64,000 nt of DNA. It comes from Methanococcus voltae. GTDB taxonomy: Archaea > AGJL01 > Methanococci > Methanococcales > Methanococcaceae. This document shows, in pieces, positions 1 to 63,379 of this stretch; the stretch's first letter is position 1; each line of letters begins with the position of its first letter. A program made the position numbers and the translations under genes. The notes under the pieces are model-generated. The model ran no database searches, was not told where the DNA came from, and saw only the letters and a program-made list of their open reading frames with translations. The DNA lies in assembly GCF_017875395.1 (NCBI RefSeq), contig NZ_JAGGMO010000001.1:1-64000 (forward strand), written 5' to 3'.

Positions 1-534
1 ACTACGTAAATAACTTCTTCAGTAGCTTCATTTCCAAGATTGTCTTGAGCTACTACAGTTAAGTTGTTTTTATTTCCAGCTACTGTTTCTATTGTAGCAG
101 TGTATGTATTTTCTTGATCTTCTACTGCTTTAAATTCAACAGCTACGTCATCTAAGCTAGCTGAAGTAATTGAACCTTCGTTTAATACTGCAGTAACTTC
201 TAATGAACCCTCATTTACGATAGTTCCATTTATTGGTGTTAATGTGATTGTAGGTGCTTCTGCATCTACTACGTAAATAACTTCTTCAGTAGCTTCATTT
301 CCAAGATTGTCTTGAGCTACTACAGTTAAGTTGTTTTTATTTCCAGCTACTGTTTCTATTGTTGCAGTGTATGTATTTTCTTGACCTTCTACTGCTTCAA
401 ATTCAACAGCTACGTCATCTAAGCTAGCTGAAGTAATTGAACCTTCGTTTAATACTGCAGTAACTTCTAATGAACCTTCATTTACGATAGTTCCATTTAT
501 TGGTGTTAATGTGATTGTAGGTGCTTCTGCATCT
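1..534 (-). repeat. Two tandem 267-bp repeats (89 residues each) in the surface-protein gene
   Basis: Positions 268-534 and 1-267 are the same 267-bp unit with only four base differences. Two change the protein (Gly/Asp and Glu/Lys) and two are silent. The unit starts with DAEAPTITLTPING and ends with EEVIYVV, an Ig-like fold by appearance. The first copy touches the window edge, so more copies may follow. The near identity points to recent duplication or gene conversion. Confidence 0.95.
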
Positions 535-3371
535 ACGGTGAACGAAATTGTTTTTACAGCTTTGTTTCCATTGCTTTCACTAACGTTTATTTTTAATGTG
601 TGAGCACCTGATGTGATACCTGTAACATTACCCGTGTAAGTTGTATCTTTAGGAGTTAATGTAACAATTTTTTCGTTTGCTGTTTTTTCATCAATTATAG
701 CACTATATTTACTTGCTACTTCACTTAATGTAACAGATATGTCAAATGAACCGCTTAATTTAGCACCTTCTTCAGGTGTTACACTTTCGATTGCTATTGG
801 ACTGTCTAATATTACAGCATCATCTACAGTGATGTTGAATACCTGGTTTGATACATTATTCCAAACTGCTGTTATAGTAAATTTTTTATTCTCTTCATTT
901 ACGATAAGATAGTAGCATAATGTATTATCAATTCCTTTAACATCGTCCCATTTGGATTCAACGTCGCCAATCTTTATTTTTGAATTTGAAGTATCTACAC
1001 CTTCAGGCCCTACAATTTGTATACCTATTCTGTTACCTGCGGGCATTTTTTCAGTAGCAGGACTCCATATAATTTCTCCTCCTACATATTCAACGATATT
1101 ACCATTTGAATTAACAACTACATTTTCCCCGCCAACATTTTCTGGGCTTCTGAGGATAACCCCGCCTAATATAGAGGTCGTGTTAAATGTTACGTTTCCG
1201 TAGCTATTACTTTGTTCGTCAGATAATTCAATATTCGTAATGTTTACAACGTAAGGTTTTGAAGTATTCACAATTTCCAATACGAAGTTTGCAAGTTCAA
1301 ATTCACCATATTTATTTTCAGTGAAGTTGAAACCTCCAAAGTATCCGGTTTCGGCATTGTAATTTGAGAATGTACCCGATAACATCTGATCCTTAACTAC
1401 TAAGTTTTTAAGGTTTAATGTTCCTTCAAATCCCGCACATTTTCTATATTCAGCAACGTCTTTTGCGTTAAGCGTGAAAATGAAACCTTTTTCGTTAGGG
1501 TCTTTTTTTGCTGTGTACACATTGATTGCATCATCAACAATTTTTACAGATTTTGAAAGTCTGTTGTTTGATTCGTTTTCTTCACTCACTGCATTGCTAT
1601 CGTCTGCAATTATTGTCAATAATGTAGTTATTTTTGCGTTATTTGCCCATTCGAATTGTATTGTTTCGGTAGCACCTACTTGCAATGAATTAATTGTTTT
1701 TTCGATTGGATTGTTTGCATCAACATATAATGATACTTTGAATGGTTTTGTAATGTCAACGTGACCATTATTTGTAACATCTACATCCAAGGTTACTTTT
1801 TGTCCAATATTGTATGAATCCGGAATAATAGCGTTAATTCCAATATCGGAACTTATGATTTCTACTTTAGCATTATTTAATTCGACATTATTAAATTCAG
1901 AAGTTTTATCTGAAATTGATACATTGGTTAATTCAAAAGTTGAATTTCCACTATTTAAAGCTTTAAATTTAGCTTTTACAATAGGCATATTATTTGTAAT
2001 TCCATCTATAACAATTGAATATCTAATAATTCCATTATTATTATCAATATCAATAAGTTTTAAATTAATATCACTTTCAGGAATTAAAAATGTAGAATTT
2101 TCACACATTACCAAATTCTTATCAAAATTAAGTATAAATTCAAATCCATTTACAGTCCTAACTCCATCTAATTTATTTAAATCAATAGTTATGTTAAAAT
2201 ATTCATCAACTGTAACTAGAGATTTATTTTCAGTCAAATTTACAGAAATTGTGTTTTCTGTAACGTCAATAGTTTTTAATACTTTATTATTAGATATATT
2301 TTCATCGTCGAAGCTTAATTCAGCGATTATTTTTGTACTTGGTTTTTCTGCTGTCCAGTCTACAATTATTTCCTGGGTTTCACCAGCAACTAAGGGTCTT
2401 ATATTTTCCGTTTTTAACAAAGTAGAATCTGCATATACTGAAATAGTATAGCTTGCCGTATCTTTTAAAGTTACTGAACCTTCATTTGAAACTGGTACGG
2501 TTATTTTTGCAGGTGTTGAATAGTATGGATTATCAACGGTAATTTCACCAATTGCAATGTCTGGTGTATTAACTACTATGCTAACATCTTGTTGTGCAAC
2601 TTTTTCAACATATTGAGCAGAAACTTTTCCATTTAAAGTACTTGCATCTAAAACTAAATCTGGTATTTGTACTTTGAATGATTTTGATGTAGCATCATAA
2701 TTCATTGTGTAATTTTTATCATTTAGTGAAAAGTTTACACTCATACTTTCATTTGCAAAGCCTGGGTTGATTAATTTTGAGTCCACATCTAAAGTAACAA
2801 TTCCTTCGTAAATAAGTTCAGGAAGTACAGTCACTTCAAGAATATTAGGATAATATCCCAAAACTCGAACATTTGCACCCAATATATGCTCTGAAATAGG
2901 AGTTGTTGAAACACCGCCATCTTTAGTCATATCGATATTTCTTAAAAGTACTTCATTTGTTGAAATATTAGATGTATTGAATGTAAGAGTAGCTATTTTA
3001 AAGCTAGTTTCGGTAATTCCTCCGCCTATCCAAGCTAAGCTAATTGAGTTACCTGCTACATTAGCATCTTTAAGACCTGCTGTATTTGCAACGTCGGATA
3101 ATTGAATATCTACTAATTTTAAATTATTCGAGTCATATGCAATAGTGGATTCAAATCCTTCTACAGTTATATTTGAATTATTTACCCAAATATCCATTTG
3201 AACTTGTTGACCGTCGCAAACATGCTGTGTTTGAGGAGCTAAGCTAACAACAATATTGGCATCTGTTGCTGCAGAACAAGCCCCTAAACTACCAAAAACC
3301 ACAAAAATTGCCATCAATGACATTATTATGATTTTTAACTTACTTTTAGAGTTTATTTTTGAATTTTTCAA
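1..3371 (-). CDS. Large secreted surface protein with cohesin-like, CARDB-like and Ig-like modules (C-terminus beyond window)
   Basis: The open frame runs from a TTG start at 3371, preceded by GGTGG, through the left edge, so at least 1123 residues are present and the C-terminus is missing. Residues 1-35 look like a signal peptide: basic start, hydrophobic stretch, then LGAC at 29-32, which could be a lipobox. The mature part appears modular. Cohesin-like beta-sandwiches sit near residues 38-170, 374-505 and 612-740. Two CARDB-like adhesion modules with an S/NNxxxK pattern lie between them. Divergent and then near-identical 89-residue Ig-like repeats follow to the edge. Family assignments are from pattern reading, not a profile search. 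The next gene upstream encodes a dockerin-bearing binding protein, so this protein may be its cell-surface scaffold. Role inferred: extracellular display or adhesion. Confidence 0.8.
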   Translation of the reverse strand, partial: MKNSKINSKSKLKIIIMSLMAIFVVFGSLGACSAATDANIVVSLAPQTQHVCDGQQVQMDIWVNNSNITVEGFESTIAYDSNNLKLVDIQLSDVANTAGLKDANVAGNSISLAWIGGGITETSFKIATLTFNTSNISTNEVLLRNIDMTKDGGVSTTPISEHILGANVRVLGYYPNILEVTVLPELIYEGIVTLDVDSKLINPGFANESMSVNFSLNDKNYTMNYDATSKSFKVQIPDLVLDASTLNGKVSAQYVEKVAQQDVSIVVNTPDIAIGEITVDNPYYSTPAKITVPVSNEGSVTLKDTASYTISVYADSTLLKTENIRPLVAGETQEIIVDWTAEKPSTKIIAELSFDDENISNNKVLKTIDVTENTISVNLTENKSLVTVDEYFNITIDLNKLDGVRTVNGFEFILNFDKNLVMCENSTFLIPESDINLKLIDIDNNNGIIRYSIVIDGITNNMPIVKAKFKALNSGNSTFELTNVSISDKTSEFNNVELNNAKVEIISSDIGINAIIPDSYNIGQKVTLDVDVTNNGHVDITKPFKVSLYVDANNPIEKTINSLQVGATETIQFEWANNAKITTLLTIIADDSNAVSEENESNNRLSKSVKIVDDAINVYTAKKDPNEKGFIFTLNAKDVAEYRKCAGFEGTLNLKNLVVKDQMLSGTFSNYNAETGYFGGFNFTENKYGEFELANFVLEIVNTSKPYVVNITNIELSDEQSNSYGNVTFNTTSILGGVILRSPENVGGENVVVNSNGNIVEYVGGEIIWSPATEKMPAGNRIGIQIVGPEGVDTSNSKIKIGDVESKWDDVKGIDNTLCYYLIVNEENKKFTITAVWNNVSNQVFNITVDDAVILDSPIAIESVTPEEGAKLSGSFDISVTLSEVASKYSAIIDEKTANEKIVTLTPKDTTYTGNVTGITSGAHTLKINVSESNGNKAVKTISFTVDAEAPTITLTPINGTIVNEGSLEVTAVLNEGSITSASLDDVAVEFEAVEGQENTYTATIETVAGNKNNLTVVAQDNLGNEATEEVIYVVDAEAPTITLTPINGTIVNEGSLEVTAVLNEGSITSASLDDVAVEFKAVEDQENTYTATIETVAGNKNNLTVVAQDNLGNEATEEVIYV

Positions 3372-3600
3372 ATTACCACCATCTAAATTCAATAGTAGTT
3401 TATTTTTTTCTTTTTTTACTCATCTTGAGTTTTAATTTCTAATTTATTTTTGATTAAGACATATTTATTAAAAAAATAATTAATAAGGTATAATTAATAG
3501 AGGACAATAAATAGAGAATGATAAAACGACTAAAGTTAATTAAAGTAATTTTATAACTTATCTGACTCTATTAATTACAAATTTAATGTTTTTTAATATA

Positions 3601-4968
3601 TTATGGCTTATAAGGGGTTCCTTCATTAGTTTCTGGATTGTAAGCTAATAAATACTTGGTAGAACGTCCTTTAAAGTCGTCAGGGTACATTATAGTTCCC
3701 ATATCCATTAAAATTTCATCCGTATTTACAATTCCTGTTTGATAGAAATCTGAGGAGTAACAGAATACTCTTCCATTAATTACAGGGTTTAATTGATTGT
3801 AACCTACGTGTCTATCCTTGAAAGCCGACAAGTATTTTGTTGCAGAAGAGATAACCCAAATATCTGCGTTTTTAGTAGTCTCAAGGAATTCTTCCTTAGT
3901 TAATTTTGCAAATCCGGTTCCGGTGTATTGCGTAAATAAGTAATCTGCCTTACAGTTTTGAGTAATTCCTCTAGCGTAATATGATTGTGCAGCAGGAACG
4001 GATGCGTATCCTTTACTGGTTATGTAACCCCAAGAAACAGCGGGTGTATTAGTACCTGATGCTGCTCTTTTAGCGTTTAATGATTTTTTCTCTACTTTTG
4101 AGAAATAGCTATTTATGAACTTTTCTTTGTTGTAGAATGCAGCCATTGCTTTTGCCCATTCACATCTACCTAAGAATGTTTGTTCGGTCCATGATGGGAA
4201 TGCAACACAATTAATGCCTTTATCTTTACAATTAGCATCGATAGTAGCGCCCCTGTTGCCATCTAACGAATTCATAACAAAGTCAGGGTTTAAAGTCGTT
4301 AATTTTTCGTAATCTAAACTATCAGGGTGTCCTAAATGTACTATTTTACTATCACTACCTTCGATACCAGTTAAATGTTGATTAATATAATCAAAATGCC
4401 ATGTTTTTGTACCTGTGGTAGTAGATATTCCACTAATTGTATTCAATACGTCTCCATTTTCATCATTACATACCAAATAAGCTACGTGTACGGTAGATGT
4501 CGATACAACATTATCTACAGGGGTTGTAATTATTTTATCGTATTTTCCATTTGCCCATGCAGGTTCTGCCTGAGTTTGATTTTTCAATAAGTATTTTACG
4601 CCAGCTCCGTCGGTGAATATTTTATATTCGAAACTTTCGCCGTTGTAAGGGTTTACTTCCAAACCATCAGCGTCGTAATATACAAGATCCATGCTCATAG
4701 CGTATGCAATAGGTTCGGACATCTTGTCGTAATAGTTAAATAGATATACAACATCGGAAACGGAAATTTTATTGTCTGCGTTGACATCACCGTCTTCAAT
4801 ATCCATATTTCTAATATTAAACAAATATACAACATCGGAAACGGAAATTTTCCCGTCACAATTAACGTCACCTAATCTATAGTCATAATTTCCATTAGCA
4901 AAGCTTGATGGAATTAAAAAAATTGTTAGAAGGATTAAAAAACCCATTTTAGTCTTAAAACTACTCAA
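3601..4968 (-). CDS. Secreted solute-binding protein with N-terminal dockerin module
   Basis: The 455-residue product begins with a signal peptide (about 1-25). A type I dockerin-like module follows at 31-82, with two calcium-loop repeats, GDVNCDGKISVSDVVYLF (33-50) and GDVNADNKISVSDVVYLF (60-77). Loop acids are D34, N36, D38 and D45, and D61, N63, D65 and D72. The rest (about 90-455) resembles class III periplasmic binding proteins of the iron-siderophore/cobalamin type, for example the LNPDFVMNS segment near 226-234. The protein probably binds a metal complex or cofactor outside the membrane. No permease or ATPase gene is adjacent. The gene lies just upstream of the cohesin-like protein on the same strand, with 229 bp between, which suggests the two proteins dock. 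The ligand is unknown. Confidence 0.85.
   Translation of the reverse strand: MSSFKTKMGFLILLTIFLIPSSFANGNYDYRLGDVNCDGKISVSDVVYLFNIRNMDIEDGDVNADNKISVSDVVYLFNYYDKMSEPIAYAMSMDLVYYDADGLEVNPYNGESFEYKIFTDGAGVKYLLKNQTQAEPAWANGKYDKIITTPVDNVVSTSTVHVAYLVCNDENGDVLNTISGISTTTGTKTWHFDYINQHLTGIEGSDSKIVHLGHPDSLDYEKLTTLNPDFVMNSLDGNRGATIDANCKDKGINCVAFPSWTEQTFLGRCEWAKAMAAFYNKEKFINSYFSKVEKKSLNAKRAASGTNTPAVSWGYITSKGYASVPAAQSYYARGITQNCKADYLFTQYTGTGFAKLTKEEFLETTKNADIWVISSATKYLSAFKDRHVGYNQLNPVINGRVFCYSSDFYQTGIVNTDEILMDMGTIMYPDDFKGRSTKYLLAYNPETNEGTPYKP
4744..4850 (-). repeat. Duplicated dockerin calcium-loop coding segments
   Basis: The segment coding KISVSDVVYL occurs twice, 81 bp (27 codons) apart, and about 26 bases are identical between the copies. 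This is the internal duplication typical of dockerins, unusually well kept at DNA level. Confidence 0.85.
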
Positions 4969-5286
4969 AACTTAGCCTCCATTATTTTTAATTTTGGTAA
5001 TTATTATTTTTTTGTTAAATTTTAGTATGATTTACTGCTATAGTTATAGTTATGTTTATAAATTTTAAACAAAACTTTAATTGGCTCTCAAAATATATAT
5101 AATTATTGATTATTTTAATAGAATTAAATGTACCTTTAATAAAAAAATTACAACATAACTGAAATAATTATTAAAAATAAAAAATGTCAAAACTAAAAAG
5201 TAATAACTAAAAAATAGTAAAAATAATATAGGATAATAAATTAAAAATAATATAGGATAATAAATTAAAAAATAAGTATATATTAA
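4969..5286. other. Intergenic spacer with a 24-bp tandem duplication
   Basis: This 318-bp AT-rich spacer holds the upstream region of the dockerin gene and the 3' flank of the dehydrogenase. A 24-bp unit is repeated exactly at 5220-5243 and 5244-5267, near the dehydrogenase stop. No open frame or RNA gene was seen. Confidence 0.7.
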
Positions 5287-56825: not shown

Positions 56826-57992
56826 ATGAAGAAAATAAAGGCTATTGTCGTAGATGATTCCGCATTCATGCGAAAAGTTGTAGAAGATATCTTAAACACA
56901 GACCCCGGAATTGAAGTTGTAGGTACTGCGAAAGATGGAAAAGAAGCGGTTGAATTAGTAAACAAATTAAAACCTGACATTGTAACAATGGATGTTGAAA
57001 TGCCTATTATGGATGGTATTGAAGCAACTAAAAACATAATGCAGACTTGTGCTACACCGATCCTTATGCTTTCTGCAGTAACTCGTGATGGTTCAGAAAC
57101 TACATTGAAAGCTCTTGAAAATGGTGCAGTAGATTTTATACAGAAACCTTCTGGCTCAGTATCATTAGATATTCGTGAAATATCCGAAAAAATTATTAAA
57201 AAGGTTAAGGACGTTTCAAAATCAACAGTCAGACCGTTAAAATTTACAAAAATGCAGTCTTCCATAACTCCAAAAGCAGATGACATTGTTTCAAAGAATA
57301 CCAATACAAATGCGAACTCCGATACCGGTGCCAATAATAACAACTTAGAACGTGAAAATGCAGGATTAAATAATCCAAATTTAGAAAATACCCTTTCTAA
57401 AATTGGAATTATGATGGGTTCATCTACAGGTGGTCCTCCAGTAGTTTCTGAAATAATATCAAGATTACCAATGGGAATGCCCCCAATATTTGTTGTTCAA
57501 CACATGCCTGCAGGATTTACAAGAGTTTTTGCAGAAAGAATTGATAGAATAGCAAAATTAAAAGTTGTTGAAGCTTCAAATGGTATGTTAATAAAGCCTA
57601 ATCACGTCTATATTGCCCCGGGCGATACCCAAATGCTATTAAAAAGACGGGGAAATAATAAATATATTGAAATAGACCCGAACATGCCCAAACTTCACGG
57701 TACAAAACCAACTGTGGATATTACTGCTGAATACGTTGCAAATATTTATGGAAATAATTCTTTAGGAATTATTTTAACAGGTATTGGAAAAGACGGTGCA
57801 GTAGGAATGAGGAACATTAAAGAAAAAGGTGGGTACACGATAGGTCAAAATAAAGAGAGTTGCATTGTTTACGGAATGCCAAAAACTGCTTACGAATTAA
57901 ATGCGTTAAATGACGTTTTACCACCAAGCCAAATACCTCAAAAAATAGAAAAATGCGTTGAAAGATACGTTCAAAAATTAGGGAGTAGATAA
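56826..57992 (+). CDS. cheB: Chemotaxis response regulator protein-glutamate methylesterase CheB
   Basis: The 388-residue product has a receiver domain (1-120) with D10, D11 and the phosphoacceptor D56 in TMDVEMP. An Asn-rich linker (about 155-190) follows. The methylesterase domain carries the Ser in MGSSTGGPP, the His in VVQHMPAGF and the Asp in GIGKDGAVGM. It removes methyl groups from receptor glutamates and sets adaptation. GGAGAGGAAATT precedes the ATG. cheA starts 2 bp after its stop, so the two are surely cotranscribed. Confidence 0.97.
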   Translation: MKKIKAIVVDDSAFMRKVVEDILNTDPGIEVVGTAKDGKEAVELVNKLKPDIVTMDVEMPIMDGIEATKNIMQTCATPILMLSAVTRDGSETTLKALENGAVDFIQKPSGSVSLDIREISEKIIKKVKDVSKSTVRPLKFTKMQSSITPKADDIVSKNTNTNANSDTGANNNNLERENAGLNNPNLENTLSKIGIMMGSSTGGPPVVSEIISRLPMGMPPIFVVQHMPAGFTRVFAERIDRIAKLKVVEASNGMLIKPNHVYIAPGDTQMLLKRRGNNKYIEIDPNMPKLHGTKPTVDITAEYVANIYGNNSLGIILTGIGKDGAVGMRNIKEKGGYTIGQNKESCIVYGMPKTAYELNALNDVLPPSQIPQKIEKCVERYVQKLGSR

Positions 57993-57994
57993 CT

Positions 57995-60900
57995 ATGGAT
58001 GAGATGGAACAGTATAGGGAATTGTTTATGACCGAAGCTGAAGAACATTTACAGTCCCTTAATCAAAACCTTGTCGATTTAGAGAATTGCCCCGAAAATA
58101 CGGATATTATAAATTTAATATTCCGTTCTGCCCACACTTTAAAAGGTTCAGCAAGAACCCTTGGTTTTGAGCATATATCCCAATTAACACACCATATGGA
58201 AGATATATTGGATAATATAAGGGATGGAAAAATTCCTGTTAACCATGAAATCATGGATTTATTGTTTAAATGTTTAGATGCGCTAGAAACAATGGTTGGC
58301 GAAATTGCAGATGGTGAAAATGAGACCACTGTGGATTACGAAAGTATCATTGATATCATTAAAAATTTAAAAAATAAGCACTTAGGCGGAAATATTGGAA
58401 ATTCTGCACCTCCTGCGCCTGAATCGGTACCTTCAGCTGAAGTATCTGCAAACGTTAACAGTGCGGATGCTGTTGCAAATACAGTCTCTTGTGCAACGAA
58501 TGGAAATTCCGGATCTACATCTAATAAACAATCTTATTCTTTGAAAAATGAAAAAACTGTTGTAAAAATTGAAATAAAAAAAGATATCGATTGTAATTGT
58601 GAAGAAAACGAAGTTTCTGAAGTAGATATCAATAATGAAATTGATAGTGAAATCAATGGAGAAATTGATATTGATAACGATGTTAATTCAAAAATTGATG
58701 AAAATAATAGTAATAATAACAAATTAAACGTTCCAGAAAATATTGATGAAATTTTAGCACAAATGCACCAATCTTCAAACACTTTATGTGCTATTTCTGG
58801 CGCTTTAGAACTTCCGGAGCTTCAAACTTCAACAAAAAAGATTAGTAGATTTACCAAGTCTGTTTTAGATAAAAAAATTGATATGGATAAGGATGTATTA
58901 CAAATGATTAACAAATCATTGTCAATTATGAATTCTATTGCCAAATCAATTGAAAATAAAGAAGAAGTTCAAAAATATGGAAATGATGATGCTATAAATA
59001 ATTTAGATAACTTTGTAGCTCAAAAAGTTGAATTAAAAAATTCAAATTCGGAAACCGATAATAATACAGATAATAATATTGATGATGAAATAAACGGCGA
59101 AGATAAAATTAATAATTTTGAAGAAATTGAAGTTGAATTTGACCATACAATATTCGACTATCTTAAAAATTTAAACAAATTGGCCGAAGAAATAAACAAT
59201 AATTCAAATATTTGGCATATCAAATCTGAAATCGAAGAAGATTGTATGTTAAAATCAGTTCGATTTACAATGTTATTAAATTCATTGAACAATGATTCAA
59301 AAGGTAAAATTATTCAATCTATACCTACAATCGATGATTTGAAAAACGTCAGTTACGATAATTTAGATGTATTGTATGCTTATTCAGGAAGTGAAGAGGA
59401 ATTAGAATCTATATTAAATTCTGCTTGTGAAATGAACTATTCCAAAGCTGTTAAAGTAGATATTGAAATCAATACTGATGAAGTAGGCAATATTACTGAA
59501 TTAACAGATTCTTTAGATTGTAATTCAGAAGATAAAGAAATTTCTTGTGATTATAAGATAAGATTTTCAATAGACCAAGAATGTGCCTTAAAGTCAGTTC
59601 GTGCATACATGGTTTTAAAGGATTTATCAGAAATCGGAGCTATTGTGGATTCATGCCCATCCTTTGAGAGGATAAAAGCAGGAGATTCTGTGATTAATCA
59701 GGTTGAAGTATACTTCAACAGTCGTGCAGATATTGATACTGTGGAAGATATCATTGTAAAAACACCTGAAATCAAAAATATAGATGTAGCAACAAACAAA
59801 AAAGATACACAATCAACCAGTGCAAATTCCTCTGAAGATTCAGATTCAGACGACCCTAAAAGTGCTGAAAAATCAGAACGTAAAGAAGGTCAATCTAAAA
59901 AATCAGAATCTAAAAAATCCCAAACTGTTAGGGTAAATATTGAAAAATTGGACAAATTAATGAATTTAGTAGGTGAAGTTGTTATAAATAGGGCAAACTT
60001 CACGCAAATTGCTACAAAATACGACCTCAAGGAATTACATAACGCGGTTGGTAGACTAAACATGCTCTCAACAGAATTGCAAGAGGAAGTTATGAGTATG
60101 CGTATGATTCCCGTAGCATTTGTATTTAATAGATTCCCTAGAACTGTTAGAGATACTGCTAGAGCTCTTAATAAAGAAATAGACTTTATAATTGAAGGTT
60201 CTGAAATCGAACTTGATAGGACAGTTTTAGATGAACTTGCGGAACCACTTACCCACTTAATAAGAAACTCTCTTGACCACGGGATTGAACATTCTGACGT
60301 TAGAAAACAGCAGGGAAAGCCCGAAAAAGGTCTTTTAAAGCTTATTGCTACAAGAGAAAGAGATAGGGTAAATATCGTTATTAAAGACGATGGTAAAGGT
60401 ATAAATCCTGACGCCATAAGAAACAACGTTGTTAAAAAAGGCTTGATGTCAAGAGACGAAGTTGACAAATTAACAGATAATGAAGCTATTAACTTAATAT
60501 TCTTACCTGGTTTCAGTACTGCGGAAAAAGTTTCTGACGTATCTGGAAGGGGGGTAGGTATGGATGTTGTTAGAACTAAAATAGAGTCATTAGGTGGTTC
60601 TGTTTCAGTGCACTCGGAAGTTGGGAAAGGTTCAGAAATTGTATTACACTTACCATTAACAATGGCAATTATACAAACGTTATTGGTAAAATTAAAAGAC
60701 CAAATCTATGCTTTACCACTAACAAGCGTTTTAGATGTTGTTTCAGTAAATAAAGAAGAAATAAATAATTTAGAAGGTCAGGAAGCAATTATTTATCGAG
60801 ACCATATCTTACCAGTTACTTGGTTATGCGATGCTTTGCATCAATACAATGATTGTTCTTCAAAAGAGATATATGTAGTAGTAGTTGAGAAAAACAAAGG

Positions 60901-61054
60901 TAAAATAGGTTTAATTCTCGATGAAGTAATAGGAAGAGATGAAATTGTTGTAAAACCACTTACTGGTATATTAAAGAATATCAACGGTCTCGCAGGTGCT
61001 ACAATACTTGGAGACGGTAAAGTTGCATTAATATTGGATTTAAATAACTTATAA
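57995..61054 (+). CDS. cheA: Chemotaxis histidine kinase CheA, long form
   Basis: The 1019-residue product has an HPt domain (1-105) with the phosphorylated His47 in RSAHTLKGSA. A long acidic Asn-rich linker follows, with an HPt-like helical stretch (about 245-325) that lacks a clear phospho-His motif. Two P2-like CheY-binding domains lie at about 405-480 and 520-598, both with CxLKSVR. The dimer domain (about 645-705), the ATPase (HLIRNSLDHGIE near 754, DDGKGIN near 798, GRGVGMDVV near 851), and a CheW-like domain end the chain. It is longer than typical CheA (650-900). GGAG at the end of cheB serves as its ribosome binding site. Confidence 0.97.
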   Translation: MDEMEQYRELFMTEAEEHLQSLNQNLVDLENCPENTDIINLIFRSAHTLKGSARTLGFEHISQLTHHMEDILDNIRDGKIPVNHEIMDLLFKCLDALETMVGEIADGENETTVDYESIIDIIKNLKNKHLGGNIGNSAPPAPESVPSAEVSANVNSADAVANTVSCATNGNSGSTSNKQSYSLKNEKTVVKIEIKKDIDCNCEENEVSEVDINNEIDSEINGEIDIDNDVNSKIDENNSNNNKLNVPENIDEILAQMHQSSNTLCAISGALELPELQTSTKKISRFTKSVLDKKIDMDKDVLQMINKSLSIMNSIAKSIENKEEVQKYGNDDAINNLDNFVAQKVELKNSNSETDNNTDNNIDDEINGEDKINNFEEIEVEFDHTIFDYLKNLNKLAEEINNNSNIWHIKSEIEEDCMLKSVRFTMLLNSLNNDSKGKIIQSIPTIDDLKNVSYDNLDVLYAYSGSEEELESILNSACEMNYSKAVKVDIEINTDEVGNITELTDSLDCNSEDKEISCDYKIRFSIDQECALKSVRAYMVLKDLSEIGAIVDSCPSFERIKAGDSVINQVEVYFNSRADIDTVEDIIVKTPEIKNIDVATNKKDTQSTSANSSEDSDSDDPKSAEKSERKEGQSKKSESKKSQTVRVNIEKLDKLMNLVGEVVINRANFTQIATKYDLKELHNAVGRLNMLSTELQEEVMSMRMIPVAFVFNRFPRTVRDTARALNKEIDFIIEGSEIELDRTVLDELAEPLTHLIRNSLDHGIEHSDVRKQQGKPEKGLLKLIATRERDRVNIVIKDDGKGINPDAIRNNVVKKGLMSRDEVDKLTDNEAINLIFLPGFSTAEKVSDVSGRGVGMDVVRTKIESLGGSVSVHSEVGKGSEIVLHLPLTMAIIQTLLVKLKDQIYALPLTSVLDVVSVNKEEINNLEGQEAIIYRDHILPVTWLCDALHQYNDCSSKEIYVVVVEKNKGKIGLILDEVIGRDEIVVKPLTGILKNINGLAGATILGDGKVALILDLNNL

Positions 61055-61363
<309 letters not shown>

Positions 61364-61828
61364 ATGGTTTTAAAAGTTAAAATGGGCGGTTATGAAGTTT
61401 CTAAAGGGTTAGAGACCATGGAAACCCTTTTGGGTTCTTGTGTTGCAATAATACTATACGATAGGGGTAAAAAAATAGGGGGCATGGCACATGTAATGTT
61501 GCCTAAATCAAACTCAATGGCGCATAGGAACCCTGGTAAATATGCAGATACTGCGGTTCCTGCACTATTAAATGATATGACAAGACTTGGGGCTAGAAAG
61601 GATAAAATAGTTGCTAAATTGGCGGGTGGTGCGGCTATGTTCGACTGTAATTCTCAAACCATGGACATTGGGAAGAGAAATATAGATTCTTGTAAATTAG
61701 CACTGAAAAAAGTGGGAATACGAACATTTGCCGAAGATGTGGGTGGGACCAATGGCAGAACTGTTTATTTTAACTTAAGAGATGGGGAAGTTAAAATAAG
61801 AAATAAAAGTGATGTACGAACACTGTAA
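61364..61828 (+). CDS. cheD: Chemoreceptor glutamine deamidase CheD
   Basis: The 154-residue product has the catalytic set T21, C26 and H43 within [15 protein letters not shown] and [24 protein letters not shown] and [14 protein letters not shown] complete the family pattern. It deamidates receptor glutamines and can interact with CheC. GGTGCGATATC precedes the ATG. CheC is not seen in the window. Confidence 0.95.
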
Positions 61829-61987
61829 TATCACAAATACCTAATATTCTAAATAACTTAAAAAAATCAATAATTATCAAAATTATATTAAATAATTTAA
61901 ATTTGAGATATTTAAAATATTAAAAAAAAGTTATCCAATAAATATAATTTAAATTTGGCGTATTTTAAATGTGAAAGGTGTGTTTTT

Positions 61988-63379
61988 ATGAATAAAATAA
62001 TGTTAAATATGTTAATAAATTCTGTTGTGGTAGCAATTTTGTTCTTCATAGTTAGCTATATTACAAATCCTGCAACCTTTGGAAGTAACATATTATATTT
62101 AGGCACAGGATTAGTTTTAGCATTAGCTATCGGGTTTATTATGGGTAAAGTATCCTTAAAAAGCTCAGCTGATGAAGAAGAACTATTAGCCGTGATATCT
62201 GAAAGCTTTGGAAAAGAATTGAGTTTTAAAACGCCTGAAGAAAAAGAAAAATTGACTAAATTATTACAAAAAACAAGTAAAGATTTAAAGATATATGATG
62301 ACTTTAGAAAGGGTATTAAAAGCTTATTTGATAATATTGGTCAAGTTACTGAAGCTTTAGGAAGAGGGGATTTTTCTATTAGGGCTGACGAAAGTGGAAA
62401 AAATAACAAATTCCAAAAGAATTTAAATATGGCAATTTGTAAAGTTTCAGAATTAATTAGCAAATTAAAAGAAAATATTGAAACTTTAGAAGATAATGCT
62501 CGTTCAATCGCAGAAGACATCGGAAAGGCAAAATTATCCTCAGAACAGATTACAGATGCTGCTTCACAAGTTGCAATGGCTGCTGCAGATCAATCAACCA
62601 AATTACAAGAAGTTACAGAATTAGTTGAAAGAGCTAATGATGTGGCAAAAGGTGTATACCATACTGCAGAAGACGGTCACCAATCAGCTATGGAAGTTGA
62701 AGAAAATTCAGAAGTTGGTGTAGATAAAATAGAAAACGCCGTTGAAACAATGCAACAAATCACAAATGTGATTGATGAGCTAGGTAAATCTATTGAAGAA
62801 CTTGGTGAAGAAAGCAAAAAAATCAACGAAGTTACCGTTTTAATCAAAGATATTGCAGAACAAACCGGTCTTTTAGCATTAAACGCAAGTATTGAAGCAG
62901 CTCGTGCGGGAGAAGCAGGAAAAGGTTTCGCAGTTGTAGCAAGTGAAATTAAAGGCTTAGCTGAGGAAATCAAAAAATCTGTTGAAGATATTAACAATAC
63001 AATTGTAGGCATCAACAAAAAAGTTCAATCAACCATTGAATTAAGCTCTGCAGGTAAAGCACAAGTTGATAATGGAGTTATTGCTATTGACGATGTTAAC
63101 GGTGCTTTTATGAAAATTAAAGAAAGTATCGATAAAACGGTTACTCAAATAAACGATATAAAAGGCGGTGCTAAAATTGCTGTTGATAATACCGCTGAAG
63201 CACTTAAAAACGTTCAAGACATCGCATCAATATCTGAAGAATTTGCAGCTACTGCTGAAGAGGTTACTGCCTCTGCAGAACAGTTGGACGCATTTGTTCA
63301 GAATTTAGATGAATCAAGCGAAGAAATAACCGAATTTATCGAAGGAGTTCATGAAGATATAACTGTTTTCAAAGTTTAA
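61988..63379 (+). CDS. Methyl-accepting chemotaxis protein, without extracellular sensor
   Basis: The 463-residue product begins with two close hydrophobic helices (about 8-24 and 34-51) with only about ten residues between, so no outside ligand domain exists. A HAMP-like region (about 90-160) and a long coiled coil follow. The conserved hairpin tip [28 protein letters not shown] (read in parts) is near 293-320. The signal must come from inside the cell or through the membrane. The ATG at 61988 follows AAGGTG; an earlier in-frame start lacks one. It closes the visible chemotaxis cluster. Confidence 0.93.

Follow-up and report, generated by a model that had tools for sequence, protein, structure and literature searches.

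A dockerin as the probable surface anchor of an ABC importer's solute-binding protein in Methanococcus voltae and other Methanococcales

In Methanococcus voltae, a dockerin probably serves as the non-covalent surface anchor of an ABC importer's solute-binding protein (SBP), which would be docked on membrane and S-layer cohesins near a BtuCD-like transporter. According to the proposed mechanism, the SBP would be exported without a lipid anchor, and its N-terminal dockerin would fold around two calcium ions and plug into cohesins. These would be carried by membrane-anchored proteins (the clustered C200, C304 and COH-B) and by a long scaffold with a C-terminal S-layer domain, and the SBPs would thereby be held at the surface close to the transporter. 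The computed evidence comprises modules, fold, synteny, a swap with lipoproteins, co-occurrence and the homogenisation of dockerins.

A dockerin-bearing solute-binding protein beside a cohesin scaffold

The window, i.e. the whole stretch of 64,000 nucleotides that was analysed, forms the left end of contig C1 in a genome assembly of 15 contigs. The dockerin-bearing gene contains the following features.

3601-4968, minus strand: SBP-dockerin gene, 455 aa, with signal peptide, dockerin and class III SBP (Pfam, predicted structure, Foldseek)
4894-4968, minus strand: signal peptide, residues 1-25, without a lipobox cysteine (sequence)
4720-4878, minus strand: dockerin module, residues 31-83 (Dockerin_1 matches; model helices 43-51 and 70-83)
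4834-4869, minus strand: calcium loop 1, DVNCDGKISVSD (sequence; D34-V-N-x-D-...-D45)
4753-4788, minus strand: calcium loop 2, DVNADNKISVSD (sequence; D61-...-D72)
3646-4686, minus strand: solute-binding domain, residues 95-441 (Peripla_BP_2; Foldseek)

The 455-aa product was assigned to the class III SBPs of ABC transporters by its fold and by a Peripla_BP_2 (PF01497) match over the cut-off (6.5e-17, 62.2 bits versus 27.5, residues 203-406). Its structure matches in Foldseek are iron, heme, siderophore and B12 SBPs. Type I dockerins were recognized by two F-hand calcium loops about 25 residues apart and by Pfam PF00404. Both 12-residue loops are intact in the window's SBP, as they are in 40 of the 40 dockerins compared. 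Its best single Dockerin_1 domain scored 18.7 bits, just under the cut-off of 22.9, which was passed once the neighbouring stretches of the frame were summed (25.5 bits). The initial annotation had placed dockerin calcium loops right after the signal peptide and had called for a list of the genome's dockerin proteins; the loops were confirmed, and the list holds two convincing proteins, both of them SBPs. A half-dockerin at C3:157865 was rejected, as it has a single loop.

The adjoining scaffold gene comprises the following features.

3-3392, minus strand: cohesin scaffold gene, 1130 aa within the window, truncated where the contig ends (remainder on contig C5, L145:8264-9745, terminating in S_layer_C)
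2832-3260, minus strand: cohesin module 1, residues 45-187 (78.5 bits; AlphaFold2 model and 2xdh match)
1824-2258, minus strand: cohesin module 2, residues 379-523 (75.2 bits)
1161-1553, minus strand: cohesin-like module 3, weak, residues 614-744 (26.0 bits)
1554-1847, minus strand: CARDB spacer (one of two), residues 516-613 (Pfam; PDB 2l0d match)
3-740, minus strand: tandem Ig-like repeats, about residues 885-1130 (sequence repeat; matches on contigs C9, C5, C8 and C11)

The domain order is thus cohesin, CARDB (2.3e-17 in Pfam), cohesin, CARDB, a weak third cohesin and tandem Ig-like repeats. The bit scores listed for the three modules were obtained with a cohesin profile made from relatives that pass Pfam, from which the window scaffold was left out. 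The AlphaFold2 model of module 1 (pLDDT 92.2, pTM 0.85) has the cohesin jelly-roll fold; the closest structure is the Archaeoglobus fulgidus cohesin 2xdh (E 1.5e-9, TM 0.76/0.80), followed by many cellulosomal cohesins. Compared with the PDB, profile A1 matched cellulosomal cohesins at 1.3e-8 and 2xdh at 1.3e-4. Where at least three cohesin-like sandwiches with CARDB and Ig spacers had been proposed, we therefore find two clear cohesins and a weak third. The accompanying expectation of a cohesin profile match was borne out by the relatives' profile and the 2xdh structure but not by Pfam PF00963, which stayed under its cut-off of 24.1 on the window scaffold (19.4 bits, E = 0.0013) and was passed by the orthologous scaffolds of G018, G023 and G001.

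The scaffold ORF (3-3392, minus strand) is open, without an in-frame stop, up to the contig end. C1 breaks off inside an Ig repeat, and C5 opens with that repeat on the same gene strand and runs 493 aa to an S_layer_C domain (PF05124, 35.8 bits versus a cut-off of 23.9), as in S-layer-like proteins. The kinase-like gene after this continuation is the one that follows the intact, 1385-aa scaffold orthologue of G019. We joined the two parts because of this synteny and of a 76-nt exact overlap within the Ig repeat. The conserved S_layer_C C-terminus also ends the scaffolds of most relatives. No carbohydrate-binding modules (CBM) were found in Pfam scans of the scaffold.

Membrane cohesins and locus layout across the Methanococcales

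Three cohesin proteins, C200, C304 and COH-B, are clustered on contig C5. C304 and COH-B have a C-terminal membrane helix. In C200, the C-terminus is amphipathic in the window's genome, and Methanocaldococcus and G035 have a membrane helix there. The second SBP-dockerin is encoded on C6, and next to it are a pair of FecCD permease genes, CbiZ, a gene for a CbiR-like protein, and chelatase-like genes. The earlier reading included neither the membrane-anchored cohesins nor the other dockerin-SBP of the genome, nor the probable corrinoid context. Two further cohesin-like matches in this genome, at C1:430846 (an archaellin gene) and at C6:108173, were weak and were rejected.

In other genera, the genes form one locus in which the SBP-dockerin and then the scaffold are divergent from C200-C304-COH-B, with the second SBP-dockerin and FecCD/BtuCD-like permease and ATPase genes nearby. 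Cohesins of these types occur in 25 of 36 genomes of Methanococcales, and the docking arrangement seems to be conserved across the whole order. As a query, the window SBP gave no relatives in a first scan of the named genomes, and the paralogous SBP gave relatives in Methanothermococcus and Methanocaldococcus sp. SG1.

Other genes were observed in the course of these searches. Several other Methanococcales encode a secreted protein, alkaline-phosphatase-like by eye, with a C-terminal dockerin-like loop pair (L067, L068, L065, L070 and L061), which is a possible further client in their genomes. G023 holds a second pair (L153:6603-13400), in which a 1751-aa protein with TED, PKD and CARDB domains carries a dockerin at its C-terminus (33 bits) and adjoins a 501-aa CARDB protein whose cohesin scored about the cut-off (24.3 bits, genome search). 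Dockerin-SBP copies with a single stop codon, likely decaying duplicates, lie at L191:6953-8257 (G023, TAG) and L190:7840-9099 (G034, TGA), with intact copies alongside. The window also contains a chemotaxis cluster at 56826-63379 (CheB, CheA and a methyl-accepting protein).

Exchange of dockerin and lipid anchor

Scoring of 110 SBPs across the order, with lipoboxes assigned by pattern and not by a trained predictor, yielded 42 with a dockerin only, 61 with a lipobox only, one possibly with both and six with neither, of which at least two are classification misses. The window's genome has two dockerin SBPs and eight lipobox SBPs. In five Methanocaldococcus genomes, the orthologues of both dockerin-SBP families carry a lipobox where the dockerin would sit; no cohesins were found in these five genomes, including two that were searched again at E<=10. 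M. jannaschii, one of the control genomes, gave no match for dockerin or cohesin, and Peripla_BP_2 was present. Well-supported branches of the SBP tree force two separate changes from dockerin to lipobox, covering both paralogue families.

Dockerin-SBPs and cohesins agreed in presence or absence in 33 of 34 scorable genomes (24 with both, one with a dockerin-SBP only, none with a cohesin only, nine with neither; Fisher's test, 1.9e-7, on counts that are not independent and were not corrected for kinship). The sole disagreement was G015, whose dockerin-SBP (L160:6053-7324) has intact calcium loops and where no cohesin was detected even at E<=10; this protein may be an orphan or a relic.

These data also bear on where the SBPs are held. 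They might be arrayed on the S-layer scaffold as a surface display for distant capture, not placed for a particular transporter, as the several cohesins on a scaffold with an S_layer_C end and the lack of adjoining permease genes beside the window SBP in its own genome could suggest. However, the dockerin-SBPs of G005 and G006 are accompanied by one short membrane-anchored cohesin, with no scaffold found in either genome, so that membrane docking suffices there, and the lipoprotein swap likewise points to membrane anchoring. We thus regard distant capture as unlikely and favour retention near the transporter.

Homogenisation of paralogous dockerins

Among the genomes holding both SBP families, the dockerins of the paralogues were 78.4% identical within a genome, a level that 0 of 20000 permutations reached, and 67.7% identical between genomes, whereas the SBP domains of the same paralogues showed 30.2% and 30.0% identity, respectively. 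The dockerin DNA of the paralogues is 99.4% identical in G013 and 98.7% identical in G023, and the match stops near the dockerin edges. Recent gene conversion would leave such near-identical tracts as its expected trace. The homogenised dockerins fit a need to suit a common cohesin set, but gene conversion could do the same without selection.

Co-divergence of dockerins and cohesins beyond the SBP background was weak in a mirror-tree analysis (partial r 0.05-0.31, best p 0.019 of four tests). This weakness and the cohesin-less G015 are what one might expect if there were no pairing at all, in which case the dockerin would be a domain stabilised by calcium that has some other partner, and the scaffold would be an ordinary S-layer-associated protein. 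Such a reading is very improbable in view of the co-occurrence, the coordinated loss of cohesins with dockerins, the common locus and the cohesin fold.

The either/or anchoring, the lipoprotein swap in cohesin-less genomes and the dockerin homogenisation together suggest that the dockerin most likely stands in for the lipid anchor of the SBP. The extracellular docked pair of the initial annotation, with an S-layer-linked scaffold holding the SBP, has good indirect support from synteny, co-occurrence, the anchor swap, the homogenised dockerins and the scaffold's S_layer_C domain, while the pairing itself is a prediction. We infer that these cohesins would bind these dockerins in the cell and that the SBP would hand over its cargo to the transporter.

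Likely cargo and a shared upstream element

A corrinoid is our best guess for the cargo, because genes for FecCD, SBPs or cohesins repeatedly have CbiZ and CbiR-like genes as neighbours in three Methanococcus genomes and in Methanocaldococcus genomes. The CbiZ match is over the cut-off, and the CbiR and ATPase matches are under NCBI's cut-offs. The structure matches of the SBP do not tell B12 from heme or siderophore binding, and its best matches, in sequence as well as in structure, include iron and siderophore SBPs. An iron chelate, heme or other metal complex, which would leave the docking mechanism the same, hence has a considerable chance of being the cargo, albeit one clearly short of even, given that CbiZ, the CbiR-like gene, a BtuC-like permease and a corrinoid-type ATPase lie nearby in several genera. 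On C6, two nitrogenase component 1-like proteins adjoin CbiZ (L009:2-2994, G000:C6), with cobaltochelatase-like ChlI/ChlD genes nearby, an arrangement conserved in G019 and G020.

The two SBP-dockerin genes also have an upstream sequence in common.

5064-5079, minus strand: upstream 16-mer TAAAGTTTTGTTTAAA, common to the window and paralogous SBP-dockerin genes

The genome contains just two exact copies of TAAAGTTTTGTTTAAA, in the window and at G000:C6:21468-21483 (plus strand), which precede the two SBP-dockerin genes by about 110 and 150 bases and adjoin a TATA-like stretch. The element is conserved upstream of six of six SBP-dockerin genes in three species (including G019 and G020). Its reversed control gave an equal number of matches with two mismatches, and therefore only exact copies are telling. 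A candidate upstream of C200 was unconvincing (five mismatches in the closest gene-strand match), and matches with three mismatches in L010 were near chance. No riboswitches were found near the three loci with Rfam. TAAAGTTTTGTTTAAA is possibly a shared operator of the dockerin-SBP genes; alternatively, common descent of the upstream regions could account for it. In a tentative fuller scheme, to which we give nearly but not quite an even chance, the dockerin would be a calcium-dependent plug-and-socket SBP anchor that can be swapped with lipid, paralogues would compete for shared membrane and S-layer cohesins, gene conversion would keep the dockerins near-identical per species, and the Methanococcus dockerin-SBPs would share a regulator at the element that is exact only upstream of them.

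Comparison with known systems

Cohesin-dockerin pairs outside cellulosomes are known, and an archaeal cohesin structure exists. The role of such pairs has been described as unknown (PMC5244752). The natural comparisons presented here would give them a concrete role, the retention of transporter SBPs at the surface in lieu of a lipid, which is testable in genetically tractable Methanococcus. Such a role is relevant to the retention of SBPs close to their transporters in archaea that lack an outer membrane, and to the way in which methanogens acquire corrinoids and metals. Dockerins are not mentioned in papers on the growth of M. voltae with pyrite or nickelian pyrite.

The arrangement resembles the cellulosome of Clostridia, with its scaffoldin cohesins and enzyme dockerins, in the calcium-loop dockerin of the client, the several cohesins of the scaffold, the cell-surface attachment and the cohesin fold. 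In contrast to the cellulosome, the clients are transporter SBPs and not polysaccharide enzymes, the dockerin is N-terminal, anchoring would be by S_layer_C and membrane helices, and scans of the proteins revealed no carbohydrate-binding modules. The non-cellulosomal A. fulgidus cohesin 2xdh is likewise archaeal and is the best structural match, but in the present case the cohesins are found on a multi-cohesin scaffold and at the membrane, and the clients are SBPs encoded in a transporter locus. Lipoprotein SBPs of ABC importers (BtuF/FecB type) belong to the same SBP family, as seen in the dockerin-less Methanocaldococcus orthologues with a lipobox, whereas here the dockerin sits where the lipid anchor would be.

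For ANME archaea, ABC substrate-binding proteins that carry a dockerin and proteins with several cohesins have been reported, and a link to the S-layer has been suggested (Chadwick et al. 2022, PMC9012536). The view that such a display system is largely undescribed hence does not extend to these components, and may hold for the Methanococcales locus: a search of openly accessible literature retrieved no report of it or of the lipid-anchor exchange. The ANME SBPs are of the NikA/OppA and TroA types (PMC9012536), whereas those of Methanococcales are of the BtuF/FecB type. Beyond the ANME case, the Methanococcales show conserved linkage, lipobox exchange and homogenisation of paralogue dockerins.
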